Shown in pieces: positions 817-62,035 of a DNA stretch of 62,035 bases (position 1 is its first letter; every line of letters starts with the position of its first letter). Origin of the DNA: a virus; the IMG/VR virus record IMGVR_UViG_3300046170_000133, positions 1-62,035 of that record; one strand, 5' to 3'. The position numbers were made by a program, and so were the translations under genes. Under the pieces are notes generated by a model, which worked only from the letters and a program-made list of their open reading frames with translations, searched no databases and had not been told where the DNA came from.

Positions 817-870
817 CATAGATAATTAGTTAAAAGAACTGATTTCGATTCTTTTGAATCATCATCAGGC
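817..870 (-). promoter_or_regulatory. Leader element A with TTTT-loop hairpin (shared with element B)
   Basis: Directly upstream of the 316-aa gene. The plus-strand hairpin GATTC-TTTT-GAATC occupies 847-860, flanked by TTTC and ATCATCAG. Element B at 2042-2095 has the same flanks and loop, but its stem is GGAAC/GTTCC. Three base pairs differ and all three are compensated on the other arm. Both elements continue (minus strand) into CTTTTAACTA and then TCTATG at the ribosome binding site. A conserved RNA hairpin or protein-binding leader is inferred. Confidence 0.5.
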
Positions 871-910
871 AGACCACACAGTCCACGATCAGTTAGAACA
901 CAGAGCAGAG

Positions 911-927
911 AAAATATTACTGGTAAC
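911..927 (-). repeat. Dispersed motif copy (ACCAGT core with AT arm)
   Basis: Plus-strand reading AAAATATTACTGGTAAC, located between the stop of the ATPase gene and the start of the 316-aa gene. It matches the core and AT-rich arm of the dispersed family. The same copy appears at 59825-59841 in the terminal overlap. Confidence 0.6.
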
Positions 928-952
928 ATTTTCTCCACTCCAGTCCCTTGGA

Positions 953-2029
953 TTAGATCAATAAGTCTTGATGTCTAACCACAAAGTCAGAATAAACCTT
1001 AGTTTGTTTCAACTGAGATTTTATTCCCACCATAGTACGAACAAAGAAGATAGCAAACTCATCAGTCTGAAATTGCTCTACAAATTTTAGAGCGTTCTCA
1101 AAATGAATCGCTAACTCTGAGTCCTTCGATTCCTTAATGGTAGAAGTCAAAGCAACCGCAGTAGCGTATTGCAGACCCACACCTTCGGGAACATCCACCT
1201 TCTTGCCACCCAACACCTTTTCAAGATTTGGAACATCTTGCATCAAGGTTATGAAAGCCATGAACTCCGCAGTAAATTCTCGACCTACAAAACCATAGAT
1301 CAAGTTTTGCAGAATATCCTTGTCAGGATTTTGTGCTAGCACCTTAGACAAATTAGTGATTGTCCTAGGAGTCGCACTCGGCTCAACAATTTTGGGGTCA
1401 AAATTATTAAGGTACTGTGGCTGATACTGAATGAAAGCGATCAAGCGTTCATCAACACTATTTTCACTTGCCCACTTTAGCCAGTCGTTAGCGTTGCTCT
1501 CGAACTCGATCATCCCGACACGACCCATCCCATGTGCCACAATTTTGTTAGCACTTGATCTGTCGCTGTGACGATTTCCCGCTAGCACAATACTCCACCC
1601 TTCGGGGAAGACGTACTCGCCAAGTCTTCGTTCCTTAATCAACTGCGAAGCAATTGCTTGAAGGTCTTGACCCGCTTGAGCGAACTCATCTAAGAACAGC
1701 AGACCTTTACCTTTAGTCGGTAAATTTCCGAGCATTGCTCTCTTCTGAACTCCATCGACAATGTAAGGCAATCCGCCAAAGTCTACAGACTCAAAATGAC
1801 TCAGCCTAAAATCAACTAGACCAAATTGTTTAGCAGTCGGGGAAGCGTTATCCCAACTAACTGAAAGACCTTCCTCTTCAGCAAGGCTCTCTGCAAATTG
1901 ATAAATCGTTTCTGATTTACCAACACCCACAGACCCCAACACCAATGGTGTCTGATCTGCTAATTTCATCACGTGCATCATTCTTAAAGTCTGACTAGGC
2001 GATGACCCATTTATATTTTGTTCATCCAT
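953..2029 (-). CDS. MoxR/CobS-like AAA+ ATPase
   Basis: A 358-aa AAA+ ATPase of the MoxR/CobS type. Visible motifs are Walker A GSVGVGKS (residues 32-39), Walker B LLFLDEF, sensor 1 LAGNRH and a sensor-2-like ATPRT. Start 2029 is preferred over an in-frame ATG at 2044 because GGAG lies 7 bases before it. MoxR-type ATPases work with VWA-domain partners to remodel or activate target complexes, and such a partner is encoded at 57306-58778 in the same minus-strand operon on the circle. The target in the phage cycle is unknown. Cobaltochelatase CobS-like is an alternative name for the same architecture. Confidence 0.88.
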   Translation of the reverse strand: MDEQNINGSSPSQTLRMMHVMKLADQTPLVLGSVGVGKSETIYQFAESLAEEEGLSVSWDNASPTAKQFGLVDFRLSHFESVDFGGLPYIVDGVQKRAMLGNLPTKGKGLLFLDEFAQAGQDLQAIASQLIKERRLGEYVFPEGWSIVLAGNRHSDRSSANKIVAHGMGRVGMIEFESNANDWLKWASENSVDERLIAFIQYQPQYLNNFDPKIVEPSATPRTITNLSKVLAQNPDKDILQNLIYGFVGREFTAEFMAFITLMQDVPNLEKVLGGKKVDVPEGVGLQYATAVALTSTIKESKDSELAIHFENALKFVEQFQTDEFAIFFVRTMVGIKSQLKQTKVYSDFVVRHQDLLI

Positions 2030-2041
2030 AATTTTCTCCAT

Positions 2042-2095
2042 CATAGATTAATAGTTAAAAGACTGTTTCGGAACTTTTGTTCCATCATCAGAGCA
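2042..2095 (-). promoter_or_regulatory. Leader element B with TTTT-loop hairpin
   Basis: Sits just upstream of the AAA+ ATPase start. Hairpin GGAAC-TTTT-GTTCC at 2070-2083, with the same TTTC and ATCATCAG flanks as element A (817-870). On the minus strand the AAAAG spanning the loop could pair with the downstream CTTTT, giving a possible pseudoknot just ahead of the ribosome binding site. This would suit translational control of the operon, but nothing demonstrates it. Confidence 0.5.
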
Positions 2096-2338
2096 AGCAC
2101 ACACTTGCTGACAGTTTTGCATCCCACCATTGTGAGACTGTCCCCCTCTATTCTTTAATATTTGAGGAGCAGAACTTTATTCTTGTTCTGGGAACTTGGT
2201 GTATCGTTTACCGCCCTCGCATGCTTCCTAGCAACTGTCACTTGCTACATGGTCTCTGGGGTACGACCTAGGCTACTGTCACTTATCCCTAGGAATTTGT
2301 CAGAGTCGTATTGTGCTGTTCTATAAAACCTCCACGTT

Positions 2339-4905: not shown

Positions 4906-7392
4906 TTGGCTATAGAAAAAAATCCTATGCAACCATCTACGCCTGTAGAAGGAACAATAGAACAAGGTGCTGAAGAAATTACTGTGGCGATAGAAAACCC
5001 AGACTCAGTTGCAATTGAAACTGATGATGGTGGCATGATTATAGACTTCGATCCCGATAGTAGTCCTATGGGTATGGAAGATTTTAATTCCAACCTTGCC
5101 GAGTTTATGTCCGATACCGACCTAAATGAAATGGGTCAGGACTTAGTCTCGCAGTTTGAAGCCGATAAAGATTCTCGTAGTGAGTGGGAAGAAAGCTACG
5201 TCAAAGGTTTAGATCAGTTAGGTTTAAAGATAGAAGAGAGAACTACCCCTTGGGCAGGAGCTTGTGGAGTCTTTCATCCAATGTTAAGTGAAGCTGTTGT
5301 CCGTTTCCAATCTCAGTCAATAGCAGAAATGTTTCCCGCCCAAGGACCAGTTCGCACTAAGTTAGTTGGTAAGATTACTACAGACAAAACTAAGCAAGCT
5401 CAAAGAGTTCAAGACTATCTTAATTATTTATTAACACATCAAATGTCTGAGTACCGAACTGAGACCGAGAAGATGTTATTCTCTTTACCCTTGGCAGGCT
5501 CTGCCTTTCGAAAAGTTTACTTTGATCCAAGCCTTGATAGACCAAGTTCTATTTTTGTTCCAGCCGAAGATGTAGTAGTTAACTATGGTGCAAGCGATTT
5601 AGAAACTTGTGATCGTGCTACTCATGTCATGCGTAAATCTTCAAACGATGTACGCAAGATGCAAGTCGCTGGCTTTTATCGTGATGTAGATATACCTGAG
5701 TCTAATGAAGGACAGTCAGATATTCGTAAGAAGTATGACGAAATGACAGGCGAATCAAAGACTTACAACTACGATGACCGACATACTATTCTAGAAATGC
5801 AAGTCAACCTTGATCTAGATGGTTACGAAGATATGATCGATGGGAATAAAAGCGGTATAGCTTTACCCTTATGTAGTCTCAATAGATTATCCAAGTGGCA
5901 TAGTCTTAAGTATTCGTAGAAACTATTACGAAGACGATCCTAAAAAATTAAGACGTATGCACTTTGTTCACTATCAGTATCTACCCGGATTAGGCTTCTA
6001 TGGCTTTGGTTTGATACACATGGTAGGTGGTTTAGCTAAATCTGCTACTTCAATACTCAGACAATTAGTTGATGCGGGTACACTATCTAATTTGCCGGGT
6101 GGTTTAAAATCTAGAGGTTTAAGAATTAAAGGGGATGACACACCAATTATGCCCGGAGAATTTAGAGATGTTGATGTGCCGGGTGGTGCGATCAGAGATA
6201 ACATTAGCTTCTTACCTTACAAAGAACCATCAGGAACTTTGTATCAACTCTTACAAAACATAGTAGAAGAAGGTAGACGTTTTGCTAGCATGAATGATAT
6301 GAAAGTATCTGACATGAACAATCAAGCACCAGTTGGTACTACGCTTGCTTTACTAGAAAGAAACATGAAAGTTATGTCAGCCGTGCAAGCAAGGCTACAT
6401 GCTTCGATGCGAAAAGAATTTGAAATATTAGTTGGCATAGTTAAAGACTTTACTGAACCAACTTATCCATACGAGATGGATGAAGAAGAATTTATTAAAG
6501 CTTCAGACTTTGATGATCGGGTAGATGTTCTACCAGTTTCTGATCCTAATGCTTCGACCATGGCACAAAGAATAATGCAATATCAGGCAGCCATGCAATT
6601 GGCAGCAACTTCTCCTGAAATTTATAATATGCCCGAGTTGCATAGGCAAATGTTAGAAACATTAGGTATCAGAAACGTAGATGATATTATTCCAAACAAC
6701 GATGACATCAAACCTGTTGATCCAATAACTGCAGTTCAGAATTTAATTAATGGTGTACCAGTTAAAGCTTTTATTACTCAAGACCATGAAGCACATATTG
6801 AAACAATAGCAGCAGCTCAACAAAATCCTGACGTAATACAAAAAATAGAAGCAAGTCCTACAGCTCAAAGCATCTTGGCTAATGCAAGTGCTTATGTAAA
6901 TCAACATCTAACTATGATGTTTAGAAAACAAGTTGAAGAAGAAATGGGTATACCTTTACCAGCAGAAGGCGAACCGCTACCAGCAGATGTTGAGAAACGT
7001 ATTTCTGATCTTGTAGCTGAAGCAGCCAAAGCGAGTTGCGATTACTTCTCAATCAAGAGCAGAACAAGACAGAATTGCAGCACAACAACAAGACCCACTT
7101 ATACAAATGCGTGAAAGAGAAGTGGCAATTAAAGAAGCTGACGTACAAAGAAAAATTGCTGGCGATGCTGCACGCATACAGCTAGATGCAGAGAAAGCTA
7201 AAAACCGAGATGAGATTGAAAGAGAAAGGATAGAATCTCAAGAGCAAATTGCAGGTGCTAGCATAGGGCAGAAAAGTTGCTAGTGATATGCTAGAAGCAG
7301 AGGAGAAAGCTGATAGCAAATCAGTAGAAAGATACAAGCAAGGTATTGACATTGCAAAAGATATAGCACAGAATCTAGATAGAGATGAGTGA
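4906..7392 (+). CDS. Portal protein, reading frame broken by three single-base insertions
   Basis: The head-to-tail portal. The start is a TTG with GAGGT five bases upstream. The frame is lost three times: an extra C in CCC at 5866-5868, an extra base near 7031-7035, and an extra A or G at 7265-7275. Removing one base at each point gives a single 827-aa protein with no stop, running through GLGFYGFGLIHMVGG and ending in a long charged helical tail. All three breaks are insertions, as in other genes here, so sequencing error is more likely than a true pseudogene. The end overlaps the next start at 7385. Confidence 0.85.
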
Positions 7393-56716: not shown

Positions 56717-56741
56717 AAACCTGTAACCAGTAAATATTTTT
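56717..56741 (+). repeat. Dispersed motif copy beside the DnaA boxes
   Basis: CTGTAACCAGTAAATATTTT preceded by AAAC and followed by T. Against the copy at 47360, the central ACTGGT is replaced by its reverse complement ACCAGT while both flanks are kept. Confidence 0.7.
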
Positions 56742-56901: not shown

Positions 56902-56941
56902 AAAGCGAAAGCCTAACCATTTCTGGATAGACCTTCGCTTT
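56902..56941 (-). terminator. Intrinsic terminator of the VWA operon
   Basis: AAAGCGAA (56902-56909) pairs with TTCGCTTT (56934-56941). On the minus strand the stem is followed by a run of nine T (56904-56896). It lies 17 bases beyond the stop of the last gene of the leftward operon. Confidence 0.8.
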
Positions 56942-56958
56942 AATTTTATCTAAGTGAA

Positions 56959-57195
56959 CTAATAGTCGTGTGTATCTTCTGCCCAAGACTCATACATATC
57001 TTCTTCATACATATCGTATTTAGGATTAGTAAAAATCTCAGGTCGATAACTAGCTTTGACTTTATTAACACATTTCTCACAGACTGTTCCACAAGAAATA
57101 CCTTTTGCATCAACCAACTCATAAACGTCATTGCCTACATGATATAAGCTTCCGCATTCTAAGATTGGTTCATCTGTATCTGGATAATACTTCAT
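56959..57195 (-). CDS. 78-aa Cys-containing acidic protein
   Basis: Contains ISCGTVCEKCVNK, a CxxxCxxC cluster, with another Cys in ILECGSLYHVGND; a small zinc-binding unit is likely. The C-terminus is very acidic (YDMYEEDMYESWAEDTHDY). It is the last gene of the MoxR/VWA operon. Function unknown. Confidence 0.55.
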   Translation of the reverse strand: MKYYPDTDEPILECGSLYHVGNDVYELVDAKGISCGTVCEKCVNKVKASYRPEIFTNPKYDMYEEDMYESWAEDTHDY

Positions 57196-57305: not shown

Positions 57306-58778
57306 TCAGAATTGTCTGGGTAATATATCCATGTAAACAACCTTGCCGAATGGCAAGTCCTCAGAGTATGAAGACTGTTCTGAACATATCCACAAGACTG
57401 GAACGTCAGGCTCAACCTCTGGGTCAACCTCTCCATAACCATCAGTAAAGACAATGATTGCATCATAGTCATCATTGTCCTCTAGCTTTTGATGAAAAGC
57501 ATTGAATGGCGGAGTGAACTCTGTGCCACCAGTACCCGCACTAGGAAACTCATCCTTGTCAGGAAGAGAATCGCCCTGAGTAGTATCCCAAGTCTCCCAG
57601 TATTCGCCATTAGCATTTCGTAAAGCAATGCTAGCGAATCTGTTGACCGCAAGAACTTCTACCTGATACTGCTCGAACAAGTCCATAGCATTAGTGACGT
57701 AGTCATCTCGCTCATGTTCAGTAGACCCCGAAACATCAACCATCATTGCTATCTTTTTGATAGAAGGCTCGCTCTTCTTAGAAGGAAGATTGATACCTCT
57801 GTGTTGGTGTCTGCGATTGAGTCGAGACCATGAGTTAGAATCAGACTTAGTCGTTGAAAGAAAGTCTGCCATTTCATCTTCCCAACTCACAGAGACTTGA
57901 GTTATCTCAGCTTCTCTGCCACCGAGATAGTCAACACCGCCACTATGACCGATACCTTTTTCGAGTTTCTGAGCAACCATGACTTGAGCATCTAGAACAG
58001 TCATCTGTTCTTTAATCTCATCATCACTTAATGCTTGCCCATCCTCATCAGTAGCGGGAAGAATCGCACCCGCAAAAGAAGGCAACTCATTCAAGTCAAC
58101 TTCTCCGCTAGCACTTTTACCACCAGTCCCATCTTTTGGATTTTCTCTTTGGTCTCCTTCCTCATCGGATTGAGACCCGCCAGAAAACTCCTGACCAGTA
58201 ATATTTTCTTCTGCGTTTTGGTTCTGATCCTCAGATTGCTGACCGCCACCCTGACTGTCTTGATCTTCTTGTTCGTCTGAATCTTCCGAGTCAGAGTCTT
58301 GATCAATCAAGTCATTCAAAGCTTCGTCATCACTCATCAAAGTAGAATAGATTTTCTCGGCTGAATCTCTACCATACTTTTGAACATCAATCAGTCCGCC
58401 TTCTGGTAAAGGCTGACGTAATACATCATAGATATAATTGTTGATTGCATAATCACAAGCAATATTCCAAAGGTTAGCATTACGTCTACCCATCCTAAGA
58501 TGATGACCCCAAACAACGTGCAAAGTTTCGTGAATGATAACCGCAGTTATCTCTTCCATAGGTAGAGATAAAACAAAGTTAGCATTGAACTTGATGACCT
58601 TGCCATCGGTAGCCATGGTGTCAAACGAATTGTCTTCGATCAACTCCAACTGCAAGAGCATGCCCGCCATCCCAACTGAAGACTCAATCAGTCTGGCTTT
58701 TGCTTTTTGCATGATGTCCATCGCTGTGTATTTCGGATTGTGATAAATCTGATCACTTAAAGTATTGTAACTAGACAT
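57306..58778 (-). CDS. Metallopeptidase-like plus VWA-domain protein (DUF2201 type)
   Basis: A 490-aa protein. The N-terminal third has IIHETLHVVWGHH, an HExxH zinc-site motif. An acidic, Gln/Ser/Asp-rich linker (about residues 150-235) follows. The C-terminal VWA domain has an intact MIDAS: DVSGST, GGTEF and FTDGYG. The start at 58778 is set by GGAGGT seven bases upstream. Such proteins are co-encoded with MoxR/CobS-like ATPases, here the gene at 953-2029, and act as adaptors or activated partners. It overlaps the 316-aa gene by eight bases. A motif copy lies in the linker region. Confidence 0.85.
   Translation of the reverse strand: MSSYNTLSDQIYHNPKYTAMDIMQKAKARLIESSVGMAGMLLQLELIEDNSFDTMATDGKVIKFNANFVLSLPMEEITAVIIHETLHVVWGHHLRMGRRNANLWNIACDYAINNYIYDVLRQPLPEGGLIDVQKYGRDSAEKIYSTLMSDDEALNDLIDQDSDSEDSDEQEDQDSQGGGQQSEDQNQNAEENITGQEFSGGSQSDEEGDQRENPKDGTGGKSASGEVDLNELPSFAGAILPATDEDGQALSDDEIKEQMTVLDAQVMVAQKLEKGIGHSGGVDYLGGREAEITQVSVSWEDEMADFLSTTKSDSNSWSRLNRRHQHRGINLPSKKSEPSIKKIAMMVDVSGSTEHERDDYVTNAMDLFEQYQVEVLAVNRFASIALRNANGEYWETWDTTQGDSLPDKDEFPSAGTGGTEFTPPFNAFHQKLEDNDDYDAIIVFTDGYGEVDPEVEPDVPVLWICSEQSSYSEDLPFGKVVYMDILPRQF
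58191..58210 (+). repeat. Dispersed motif copy inside the VWA gene
   Basis: CTGACCAGTAATATTTTCTT within the acidic linker coding sequence (antisense). Core and right arm are conserved, with one A missing from the arm. Confidence 0.5.
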
Positions 58779-59721
58779 CTTTACCACCTCCGAAAACATT
58801 AGACATAAGGTTCTTGTTCAACTTGCTCTTGGAATCTTCCGCACTAGCAAGAACTTGCTTACGTTTAGACTCTCCCAACTCAGTTTTATCTCGAAGAGTA
58901 TCAACTGAATTAATGCTACCGAGCAATTGGTCAACCGAATCAATAGACTCCGCTAACTCTTCAGATTGAAAGACCTGATCATTCAGAACTCTCGCTCTGT
59001 CATTATCAACTTTCAACTTATCGAACATCGCATCTTTGAAAAATGCTCCGCCTTTATCTTTCGGCTTGAAGTTTTTCATCGCATCAATGACTCGCCCTAA
59101 AGAAGAATCTAAATTCTCCTTGGCATCATCCAACAAGAGTTTCTCGTTTTGACGATAGCTACCTTCAACTTGTGAAGCGATTTGTTTTCGCAACTTAGCT
59201 GAAGCAGTAGTACGAATATCAGACTCAACTGAAGGAATGTTTCTGAAGTTAACATCAAAAACAAACTTTCGTGCTATCTCCCATTGCTCCAAATAGTCTT
59301 CCGATTTCCAAGCATTGCCCAAAGTATCTTTAGCACCTTCGACATAAGTCTCGTAGCTACCGATAAAATGATTGACCTCTCTATCCCACTCCAACTGAAA
59401 CTTATTAATAGCTTGTTGAACTTGTTCATAGTGAGTATTAGGTAACAGATAATAAACTGATTTATTACTGTCTCCTTCTTGCCATGGGTAAACATAAGGC
59501 TTGATCTCTCTGTTCATAAACTTGTTGAACATTTTTCTCATATGAGAATTGATGTCAAAAGAATATAACTTCTTATCAACCTTGATGCTTCTATCATCAG
59601 CAGAATACATACCAGTAACCTCATCGCTGATCTCACGATCAACTTTGATACCGCTAGGTATTTGCTTATGTATGTGAATTAAAGTCGCAACTTCTTGCAA
59701 CACCGATTTTTTGTTATCCAT
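58771..59721 (-). CDS. 316-aa partner protein between MoxR-like and VWA genes (complete copy)
   Basis: The complete version of the gene truncated at the window start. It has an N-terminal segment (DNKKSVLQEVATLIHIHKQI), central long helices (QVQQAINKFQLEWDREVNHF), an Ala/Lys/Arg-rich part (TTASAKLRKQIASQVEGSYR) and a Ser/Asp-rich end. No enzyme motif is seen. Its fixed place between ATPase and VWA genes, with a close overlap with the latter, suggests a third subunit of the same complex or its substrate. Leader element A is directly upstream. Confidence 0.8.
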   Translation of the reverse strand: MDNKKSVLQEVATLIHIHKQIPSGIKVDREISDEVTGMYSADDRSIKVDKKLYSFDINSHMRKMFNKFMNREIKPYVYPWQEGDSNKSVYYLLPNTHYEQVQQAINKFQLEWDREVNHFIGSYETYVEGAKDTLGNAWKSEDYLEQWEIARKFVFDVNFRNIPSVESDIRTTASAKLRKQIASQVEGSYRQNEKLLLDDAKENLDSSLGRVIDAMKNFKPKDKGGAFFKDAMFDKLKVDNDRARVLNDQVFQSEELAESIDSVDQLLGSINSVDTLRDKTELGESKRKQVLASAEDSKSKLNKNLMSNVFGGGKDV

Positions 59722-59730
59722 AGTAACCTC

Positions 59731-59784
59731 CATAGATAATTAGTTAAAAGAACTGATTTCGATTCTTTTGAATCATCATCAGGC
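59731..59784 (-). promoter_or_regulatory. Leader element A, second copy
   Basis: Identical to 817-870; hairpin at 59761-59774. It belongs to the complete 316-aa gene in the right-hand overlap. Confidence 0.5.
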
Positions 59785-59824
59785 AGACCACACAGTCCAC
59801 GATCAGTTAGAACACAGAGCAGAG

Positions 59825-59841
59825 AAAATATTACTGGTAAC
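59825..59841 (-). repeat. Dispersed motif copy (overlap duplicate of 911-927)
   Basis: Same sequence and context as 911-927. Confidence 0.6.
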
Positions 59842-59866
59842 ATTTTCTCCACTCCAGTCCCTTGGA

Positions 59867-60948
59867 TTAGATCAATAAGTCTTGATGTCTAACCACAAAG
59901 TCAGAATAAACCTTAGTCTGTTTCAACTGAGATTTTATTCCCACCATAGTACGAACAAAGAAGATAGCAAACTCATCAGTCTGAAATTGCTCTACAAATT
60001 TTAGAGCGTTCTCAAAATGAATCGCTAACTCTGAGTCCTTCGATTCCTTAATGGTAGAAGTCAAAGGCAACCGCAGTAGCGTATTGCAGACCCACACCTT
60101 CGGGAACATCCACCTTCTTGCCACCCAACACCTTTTCAAGATTTGGAACATCTTGCATCAAGGTTATGAAAGCCATGAACTCCGCAGTAAATTCTCGACC
60201 TACAAACCATAGATCAAGTTTCTGAAGATTTCCTTGTCAGGCTTCTTGTGCTAGCACCTTAGACAAATTAGTGATTGTCCTAGGAGTCGCACTCGGCTCA
60301 ACAATTTTGGGGTCAAAATTATTAAGGTACTGTGGCTGATACTGAATGAAAGCGATCAAGCGTTCATCAACACCTATTTTCACTTGCCCACTTTAGCCAG
60401 TCGTTAGCGTTGCTCTCGAACTCGATTAATCCCGACACGACCCATCCCATGTGCCACAATTTTGTTTGCACTTGATCTGTCGCTGTGACGATTTCCCGCA
60501 AGAACTATTGTCCACCCATCAGGCAAGACATAGTCTCCAAGTCTTCGTTCCTTAATCAACTGCGAAGCAATTGCTTGAAGGTCTTGACCCGCTTGAGCGA
60601 ACTCATCTAAGAACAGCAGACCTTTACCTTTAGTCGGTAAATTTCCGAGCATTGCTCTCTTCTGAACTCCATCAAGAATATAAGGAAGTCCGCCAAAGTT
60701 CTACAGATTCAAAATGACTCAGCCTAAAATCGACCACACCAAATAGTTTTGCAGTCGGGGAAGCATTATCCAACTAACTGTAAGACCTTCCTTTTCAGCA
60801 AGACTTTCCGCAAATGATAAATCGTTTCTGATTTACCAACACCCACCGAACCAAGAAACTAAAGGAACTGTTCTGACTCTTTCATTATGTGAAGCATCTC
60901 CATAGTCCTGGACTAGGCGATGACCCATATACATTTTGTTCAATCCAT
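59867..60948 (-). pseudogene. Broken second copy of the MoxR-like ATPase
   Basis: Corresponds to 953-2029 but the frame is lost several times (for example near 60067, 60372, 60424 and 60700), leaving two readable pieces at 59867-60151 and 60404-60652. Between indels many differences are synonymous, for example around 60500-60540. It is probably low-coverage sequence of another strain and not a duplicated, decayed gene. Confidence 0.75.
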
Positions 60949-61437
60949 AATTTTTCTCCATCATAGATTAATAGTTAAAAGACTGTTTTCGGAACTTTTG
61001 TTCCATCATCAGAGCAAGCACACACTTGCTGACAGTTTTGCATCCCACCATTGTGAGACTGTCCCCCTCTATTCTTTAGTATTTGAGGAGCAGAACTTTA
61101 TTCTTGTTCTGGGAACTTGGTGTATCGTTTACCGCCCTATCATGCATCTTGTCTTCCTAACGATTGTCACTCTCGCTTTGCATGGTCTCTGGGGTACGAC
61201 CTAGGCTACTGTCACTTATCCCTAGGAATTTGTCAGAGTCGTATTGTGCTGTTCTATAAAACCTCCACGTTAAAATATAACTGGTAAGAAATTAACCAAA
61301 CCAAGAAGACCGACACGCTGTCGGGGTTTGTTGATCTGCTGTTTCTGTCCATGAGATTAACTCTACGCTAATGGGAGTAGATTGCAAGCACATTGCAGTC
61401 ATTACATTAAGAAATAAAGACCAGTAAAATATTCCCT
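60949..61437. other. Second copy of the structured terminase upstream region
   Basis: Corresponds to 2030-2503. Leader hairpin, the AGCAAG/CTTGCT and CCGACA/TGTCGG stems and both dispersed motifs (61272-61288 and 61419-61433) are kept. The stretch near 61138-61180 is rearranged relative to 2218-2255. Conservation of the hairpins against local divergence supports them as functional. Confidence 0.5.
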
Positions 61438-61926
61438 ATGACTGACGAGAAAAAACCAAACCTAAAAATAGTTAAAGACCGCCCCGAAATTTTGACCCCG
61501 AAACAAAGACATTTTGTAGAACTCATAGTAAAGGGAAAGGTAACTTATAAAGAGGCATATGCAGAGGCTTACAATGTCACTCTAACGAAGTCAGGGAAGA
61601 TACCTAAATGGGTAGAGACAGAGTCATCTAAACTGCTAGCAAACCCTAAGATAGCACTAAGCGTTCAGAGGCTCATAAGTAAACGAGAGGATGGTTCAGT
61701 AGCTTCTGGCATACGAACGAAGAACTATGTTCTTGAAAGGCTCATGGCAGAGTCTAGGGATGCTGATTCAGATGCTAGCAGAGTCAGGGCATTAGAATTA
61801 CTGGGTAAGACCATTGGAATATTCACAGACGTTGTGGAACAAAGAGAAGAGAGAGCAAGCGAAACGATAGCTGAAGAGATAGAAGAGAAGATCATCCGAC
61901 TACTAGAAGAATCACAAAACGACTAA
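61438..61926 (+). CDS. terS: Terminase small subunit, second (strain) copy
   Basis: Encodes the same 162 residues as 2504-2992. About a dozen nucleotide differences, all synonymous (for example in the region encoding RLISKR and at several Glu/Leu codons). It is intact, unlike the ATPase copy. This shows the two ends derive from real natural variants. The window ends 109 bases further on, in the gap before the large terminase gene. Confidence 0.85.
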   Translation: MTDEKKPNLKIVKDRPEILTPKQRHFVELIVKGKVTYKEAYAEAYNVTLTKSGKIPKWVETESSKLLANPKIALSVQRLISKREDGSVASGIRTKNYVLERLMAESRDADSDASRVRALELLGKTIGIFTDVVEQREERASETIAEEIEEKIIRLLEESQND

Positions 61927-62035
61927 TCAAATTTCTTAGCTAAAGAAAACAAAGACCACCCCTTTTGATTTTATGATCTGGATATTCTAGACGACCCCAC
62001 CCCCCTTAGACAAAGAGGTTACATGCCTAACATAT

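Follow-up and report, generated by a model that had tools for sequence, protein, structure and literature searches.

Type III hammerhead ribozymes (RF00008) are known from viroid satellites, plant retrozymes, and some bacteria and phages. In Perreault et al. 2011 (PMC3088659), (pro)phage hammerheads are described as clustered, with several per transcript, and as flanking single genes or short blocks of genes. The same text proposes that long phage RNAs are cut into gene-length mRNAs, reports that gene-flanking phage hammerheads self-cleave in vitro and in E. coli and that the A. tumefaciens set cleaves, and places the mapped 5' end of the transcript near, or coincident with, the cleavage site in HHphage of haloviruses HF1 and HF2. 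Hammerheads in phage leaders are already known. With respect to the core, the plus-strand hammerhead of CChMVd carries an extra A (De la Pena and Flores 2001, from the citing passages in PMC6155905 and PMC3705267), and a 2023 paper states that known hammerheads have no insertion of more than 1 to 2 nt between A9 and stem II (PMC10085705).

The viral DNA analyzed here (the window, 62,035 nucleotides) carries members of one ribozyme family that shares with RF00008 the CUGANGA/GAAA core, three helices, an open stem III, and a UH cleavage site. The family differs from RF00008 in several ways: almost every member has an additional U between A9 and stem II, loop I is UGUGUR and loop II AAAA, scores fall far under the Rfam gathering score of 48.5 bits, and some members have two-hairpin inserts at the A9/10.1 junction. 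As in the clusters described by Perreault et al. (PMC3088659), several ribozymes flank genes in one transcript. Unlike those clusters, a single type III family recurs here before the MoxR, DUF3150, and VWA genes of one phage group, and it is also found in phages without detected MoxR, DUF3150, or VWA genes. In HHphage, as described in the same source, a single hammerhead likewise lies close upstream of a phage gene; its insertions are near C3 and stem I, in a high-salt variant, whereas the window-type family has its insertion where the core meets stem II. The CChMVd ribozyme, as far as the citing passages describe it, also has one extra core nucleotide; in that case it is an A in a plant viroid, a single case and without hairpin inserts, whereas here a U is a family feature. 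The CChMVd A reportedly also lies between A9 and 10.1.

The preliminary description of this DNA had reported that the leaders of two minus-strand genes, a MoxR-like gene and a 316-aa gene, contain a duplicated hairpin with compensatory changes. The plus-strand hairpins GATTC-TTTT-GAATC (847-860) and GGAAC-TTTT-GTTCC (2070-2083) were confirmed, as were the identical flanks (TTTC and ATCATCAG) and the downstream CTTTTAACTA...TCTATG in the RNA of both leaders. Three of the five stem pairs differ between the leaders, and every difference is compensated. A complete type III hammerhead ribozyme surrounds this compensated 5-bp hairpin, which forms its stem II; the duplication and its compensation stand, and the reading as a simple hairpin near the ribosome binding site (RBS) with a pseudoknot does not. 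The leader boundaries given (817-870 and 2042-2095) cut the ribozymes short; these extend 5' to 894 and 2115. The other two stems lie just outside those boundaries and, like the core, had gone unnoticed. In the RNA, CUGAUGA flanks the hairpin 5' and GAAA flanks it 3'. The features are as follows.

2062..2115, minus strand: type III hammerhead ribozyme, leader of the MoxR-like gene (RF00008, 26.1 bits; family model R1, 74.3 bits; MFE fold)
between 2110 and 2109, minus strand: predicted cleavage site after C17 (GUC/A) in the MoxR leader, placed from U16.1-C17 beside A15.1 in the fold
2085..2091, minus strand: catalytic core CUGAUGA (C3-A9) of the MoxR leader, invariant in 50 aligned relatives
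2084, minus strand: extra U between A9 and G10.1 of the MoxR leader, the point of two-hairpin insertion in relatives (alignment A1, insert-length histogram, MoxR-leader alignment)
2070..2083, minus strand: stem II of the MoxR leader, GGAAC-AAAA-GUUCC, the hairpin described earlier
837..894, minus strand: type III hammerhead ribozyme, leader of the 316-aa gene, with a 7-bp stem III (descriptor match; R1, 70.4 bits)
between 887 and 886, minus strand: predicted cleavage site after C17 (AUC/G) in the 316-aa leader, placed from the fold and core alignment
847..860, minus strand: stem II of the 316-aa leader, GAUUC-AAAA-GAAUC, with the compensated differences
59751..59808, minus strand: copy of the 316-aa leader ribozyme in the contig's terminal overlap (descriptor and R1)
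60982..61036, minus strand: duplicate of the MoxR leader ribozyme within the contig's terminal overlap; its GAAA has one A more (R1)
953..2029, minus strand: MoxR-like AAA+ ATPase gene, 358 aa from an RBS-preceded ATG, downstream of the first ribozyme (phrog_1297, AAA_5)
58771..59721 (full copy) and 1-807 (head copy), minus strand: 316-aa gene, DUF3150-related, downstream of the second ribozyme
57306..58799, minus strand: third operon gene, DUF2201 metallopeptidase and VWA-like (Pfam), overlapping the end of the 316-aa gene

A 3.1-kb stretch at the head of the contig (1-3127) recurs at its tail (about 58,915-62,035) with 96% identity. In the tail copy, many indels break the MoxR gene and add the A to the ribozyme's GAAA. 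The repeat appears to come from a circular or terminally redundant assembly of noisy long reads whose ends were not merged, or from two strains.

The MoxR leader RNA reads ACUGU-C/AGCAAGU-GUGU-GCUUGCU-CUGAUGA-U-GGAAC-AAAA-GUUCC-GAA-ACAGU, and the 316-aa leader RNA reads AACUGAU-C/GUGGACU-GUGU-GGUCUGC-CUGAUGA-U-GAUUC-AAAA-GAAUC-GAA-AUCAGUU (slash, predicted cleavage site). Both follow the type III order (stem III-H17-stem I-CUGANGA-stem II-GAAA-stem III), with stems I and II closed by loops and stem III open. The class core (C3 U4 G5 A6 N7 G8 A9 ... G12 A13 A14) is found in each of the window's two leaders and throughout A1, a gap-free alignment of 50 equal-length ribozymes. The A15.1-U16.1 pair is U-A in 50 of 50 rows. 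C17 is present in both window leaders, and position 17 is C in 50 and A in 2 of 52 same-length matches, never G. The single extra U before stem II in the window lies within the 1- to 2-nt rule, which long-form relatives with 25 to 40 nt at this site would fail; among the A1 rows, 48 have U and 2 have A as the extra nucleotide. The MoxR leader has the hammerhead as its MFE fold (-15.8 kcal/mol). In the 316-aa leader, nearest-neighbor energies, which ignore tertiary contacts, favor a rival fold, with CUGAU paired to AUCAG, over the hammerhead by 2.3 kcal/mol. Among relatives, the MFE fold is the hammerhead in only 18 of 50, and the hammerhead lies within 1 kcal/mol of the MFE in 35 of 50.

The RF00008 Hammerhead_3 model matched the MoxR leader with an E value of 3.2e-4 in a search space of only 71 bases, and its 26.1 bits do not reach the gathering score of 48.5 bits; the element is therefore named a hammerhead ribozyme by structure and is not an RF00008 member by the Rfam rule. 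At the gathering score, Rfam gave no match in the window or in six relative loci. A search of the 316-aa leader gave no Rfam match, and whole-window and 1.6-kb scans by E value returned solely chance matches to unrelated families. Rfam misses this family probably because of the conserved extra U between A9 and stem II. In the 2011 survey (PMC3088659), the pipeline discarded candidates with a stem II mispair next to the core. That rule could have excluded this family and, together with the Rfam cut-off, may explain its lack of annotation; individual members may have been seen earlier in the same survey. No tested locus reaches the curated cut-off, and the family is probably unannotated in viral genomes.

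A full type III descriptor was used that required the core, three stems, and a UH cleavage site and permitted one extra base between A9 and stem II. In the window it matched both leaders and the terminal duplicate of one of them, and it gave 0 matches in 9.3 Mb of first-order Markov sequence, which puts the element far above chance. The strict descriptor, without the extra base, did not match the window copies. The family covariance model R1, whose training set includes both window leaders, scored the MoxR leader at E 1.6e-19 and the 316-aa leader (839-892) at E 2.3e-18.

Complete scans with stricter patterns identified 70 viral contigs; among bacterial genomes, only two contigs matched, both from CPR MAGs. 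Across the retrieved loci, 79 distinct type III hammerheads were found before long forms were considered. In A1, changes on both sides were seen at 14 of 17 pairs, and the covariation score was 0.896, versus 0.262 for shuffled and at most 0.172 for slid partners. RNAalifold recovered the three-way junction unprompted from the 50 relatives, with double changes at 14 of 17 pairs. Relatives with non-complementary stems would argue against the selection on RNA structure that had been proposed from the two leaders; the stems stay complementary (99.4% of 850 cells paired), which supports such selection, and covariation supports a core at which three helices join. The family shows strong conservation of loop I, UGUGU(R), and of loop II, AAAA, which would fit a fixed contact between the two loops.

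The rows of A1 were mostly picked by a descriptor that itself demands some pairing, and for this reason a pattern that imposes none matters. The pairing-free pattern CTGATGAT-N5-AAAA-N5-GAAA was scanned over 2.9 million viral contigs and gave at least 98 distinct matches. Stem II is complementary in 26 of the 98 distinct matches listed (25 by deduplicated script count, plus inspection). Among these 26, 24 meet the full descriptor, and the remaining 2 (L100 and L125) fit the hammerhead by eye with one stem I mismatch each. All 26 of the stem II-complementary matches listed also obey U16.1 and H17, a rule imposed by the descriptor and not by the pattern. The UGUG-type loop I is absent from the pattern, yet it occurs in most of the 24 descriptor matches listed.

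The ribozyme before the DUF3150-like gene in G001 (L321:4200-4251, minus strand) reads CUGAAUGA, with an extra A within the core, and is possibly a slow copy, a dead copy, or a sequencing error. Some other members have a short stem II. The CPR MAG contigs (L283 and L284; Campbellbacteria, Paceibacterota) carry the same ribozyme family, perhaps from a prophage or from binned phage sequence.

On the minus strand the gene order is MoxR-like gene, second ribozyme, 316-aa gene, and VWA gene. The MoxR-like gene matched the phrog_1297 ATPase (E 4e-70) and Pfam AAA_5 (22.1 bits, barely over the cut-off of 22). The 316-aa gene product is 29% identical (E 7e-40) to that of L325:973-1935, which exceeds the Pfam DUF3150 cut-off, and the third gene matched PF13203 (E 1.8e-35) and PF09967 (E 4.2e-9). 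A MoxR-type gene and a VWA gene thus occur in one block, as in a MoxR-VWA AAA+ chaperone module (RavA-ViaA-like pair). Relatives have 3 to 4 ribozymes in the MoxR-DUF3150-VWA block. In G001 they precede an 86-aa gene, MoxR (long form), the DUF3150-like gene, and the post-VWA gene (long form), and in G003 they precede DUF3150, VWA, and the two subsequent genes. The first and last ribozymes of the relatives' clusters were not found in the window with R1, and none follows its VWA gene. An RBS, an ATG, and an ORF lie 20 to 50 nt downstream of the ribozyme in 53 of 77 family members, compared with 2.7% of random positions.

Among 20 contigs tested, the window's terminase was found in 13 (72 to 94% identity) and MoxR in 14; neither was detected in G009, G014-G017, and G019, which are possibly fragments. 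The ribozyme family seems to span phage lineages. The window terminase is 55 to 58% identical to those of Pelagibacter phages HTVC027P, DSL-LC04, and 023Pt_psg01. No ribozyme of this family was found in these three nearest isolates by terminase, and the nearest isolated phages have no annotated MoxR gene. The association of one ribozyme family with repeated sites in a defined phage operon makes the role of phage hammerheads testable, since natural relatives have the same gene block with and without individual ribozymes.

Model searches of the relatives revealed longer members in which the site of the extra base holds 25 to 40 nt. A long-form scan gave 32 viral contigs and 16 distinct ribozymes, and 3 more came from the descriptor. 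The loci are as follows.

L006:4885-4971 and 8750; L057, L064, L088, L172, L266, L328, L330: long forms
L332, L336, L339, L341, L343, L344, L347, L023, L263, L342: long forms, continued

All 13 of 13 distinct inserts (25 to 40 nt) form two abutting hairpins with no linker, exactly at the extra-U site, a criterion reached by 0.4% of shuffled inserts. Helix A is usually GNRA capped, and compensated variation is seen in both inserted helices. Insert lengths at the A9/stem II junction were 0 nt in 9, 1 nt in 57, 15 nt in 1, and 25 to 40 nt in 19; the same search of a 4-Mb control found nothing. Long forms are located ahead of MoxR, DUF3150, and other genes. In L006, the long form precedes a MoxR gene 87% identical to that of the window and has the stem II of the window's MoxR leader, and its MFE fold is the hammerhead plus both hairpins (-33.7 kcal/mol). 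RF00008 scored this long form at 12.7 bits by reading the first inserted hairpin as stem II. That reading was rejected: it leaves stem III without a complement, and in the other long forms the first hairpin is not followed by GAAA. The window's own ribozymes have the U alone at the insertion point. In phage G014, a hammerhead-like element (L306) carries one insert of 15 nt at the A9/stem II junction and may represent an intermediate form.

As far as checkable, the long form is a new structural variant. The related phages may well encode active five-helix hammerheads, in which case the class would be more permissive at the A9/stem II junction than was thought. The two-hairpin form contradicts the published limit on core insertions (PMC10085705). 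The inserts may dock through tertiary contacts or act as sensors. MoxR leaders with a U and with a 32-nt insert, on the same stem II, form a natural matched pair in which cost and benefit are measurable, and an insertion point adjacent to the core is useful for engineering ligand-controlled ribozymes.

Taken with placement ahead of genes, the ribozyme anatomy, covariation, and core conservation read from the sequence make it highly probable that both leaders are type III hammerheads that cut their own transcript after C17 and separate messages; cleavage and its effect on expression are what we infer from these features. Points that tell against this reading are the more stable rival fold of the 316-aa leader, the close-energy folds of many relatives, the Rfam scores under the cut-off, the window's lack of the first and last cluster ribozymes, and the nearest isolates' lack of both ribozyme and annotated MoxR gene. 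Upon minus-strand transcription of the operon, stems I, II, and III would fold around CUGAUGA/GAAA in each leader, and each ribozyme would cut the nascent transcript after its C17 (2110/2109 and 887/886). The released mRNA would start with a 5'-OH and the stem I and stem II hairpins, the start codon lying ∼80 nt downstream. Within the window, the MoxR leader would be trimmed and the MoxR mRNA parted from the 316-aa/VWA mRNA; in relatives, 3 to 4 ribozymes would split the block into single- or two-gene messages. The likely gain would be processing without host nucleases, with expression or stability of the messages decoupled.

An alternative raised by the preliminary description is a duplicated cis-regulatory leader in which the hairpin and an AAAAG/CUUUU pseudoknot gate the RBS, with no catalysis. 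The compensated hairpin is real, and the loop is complementary to CUUUU in both window leaders and their close relatives. As a general feature, however, the pseudoknot was rejected: no more than 14 of 70 ribozymes have the complement, most of them in the MoxR-leader group and close relatives of one leader family, and in L005 the CUUU is instead taken into an extended, 9-bp stem III. Gating would also leave unexplained why CUGAUGA and GAAA are invariant, why a UH precedes stem I, and why stems I and III covary; this reading is largely refuted and very improbable. Even less credible is that the stem-loops serve host RNase III/RNase E processing or protein binding and that the hammerhead-like core is a coincidence. 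Stem-loops in intergenic leaders of polycistronic blocks would suit such sites, but the descriptor's 0 matches in simulated sequence, the invariance of the full core and the U16.1-A15.1 pair, and the Rfam type III hammerhead match (E 3e-4) argue against coincidence.

A somewhat stronger competitor, though still unlikely, is that the fold has been retained for something other than constitutive cleavage, either as a hammerhead relic or as a regulated ribozyme, for example as a switch under the control of Mg2+, a protein, or the ribosome in which the relatives' inserted hairpins act as sensors. Alternative folds of close energy in many members and the defined two-hairpin inserts in some are in keeping with this, and Perreault et al. 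suggest that cleavage by phage hammerheads may be regulated (PMC3088659). The core is nonetheless invariant over 50 sequences whose stems have diverged, which retained catalysis would predict, and several ribozymes per operon suit simple processing. Most likely, the ribozymes process phage mRNA.

Additional elements were seen around the operon and elsewhere in the window. A sigma-70 promoter scan of the leader region gave nothing above chance. An AT-rich intergenic motif like AAATATTTACTGGTTA occurs near operon genes at 56735, 56843, and 2497 (minus strand) and at 915 (plus strand) and is a candidate promoter or binding site. A terminator-like hairpin, AAGCGAAGG...GCTTTCGCTTTTTTTTT, follows the 78-aa gene at about 56,905-56,960 (minus strand) and may end the MoxR operon. 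After the terminase, adjacent ORFs of 337 and 385 aa (4906-7114) resemble two parts of a single portal-type gene interrupted by a frameshift, which a sequencing error may have caused.
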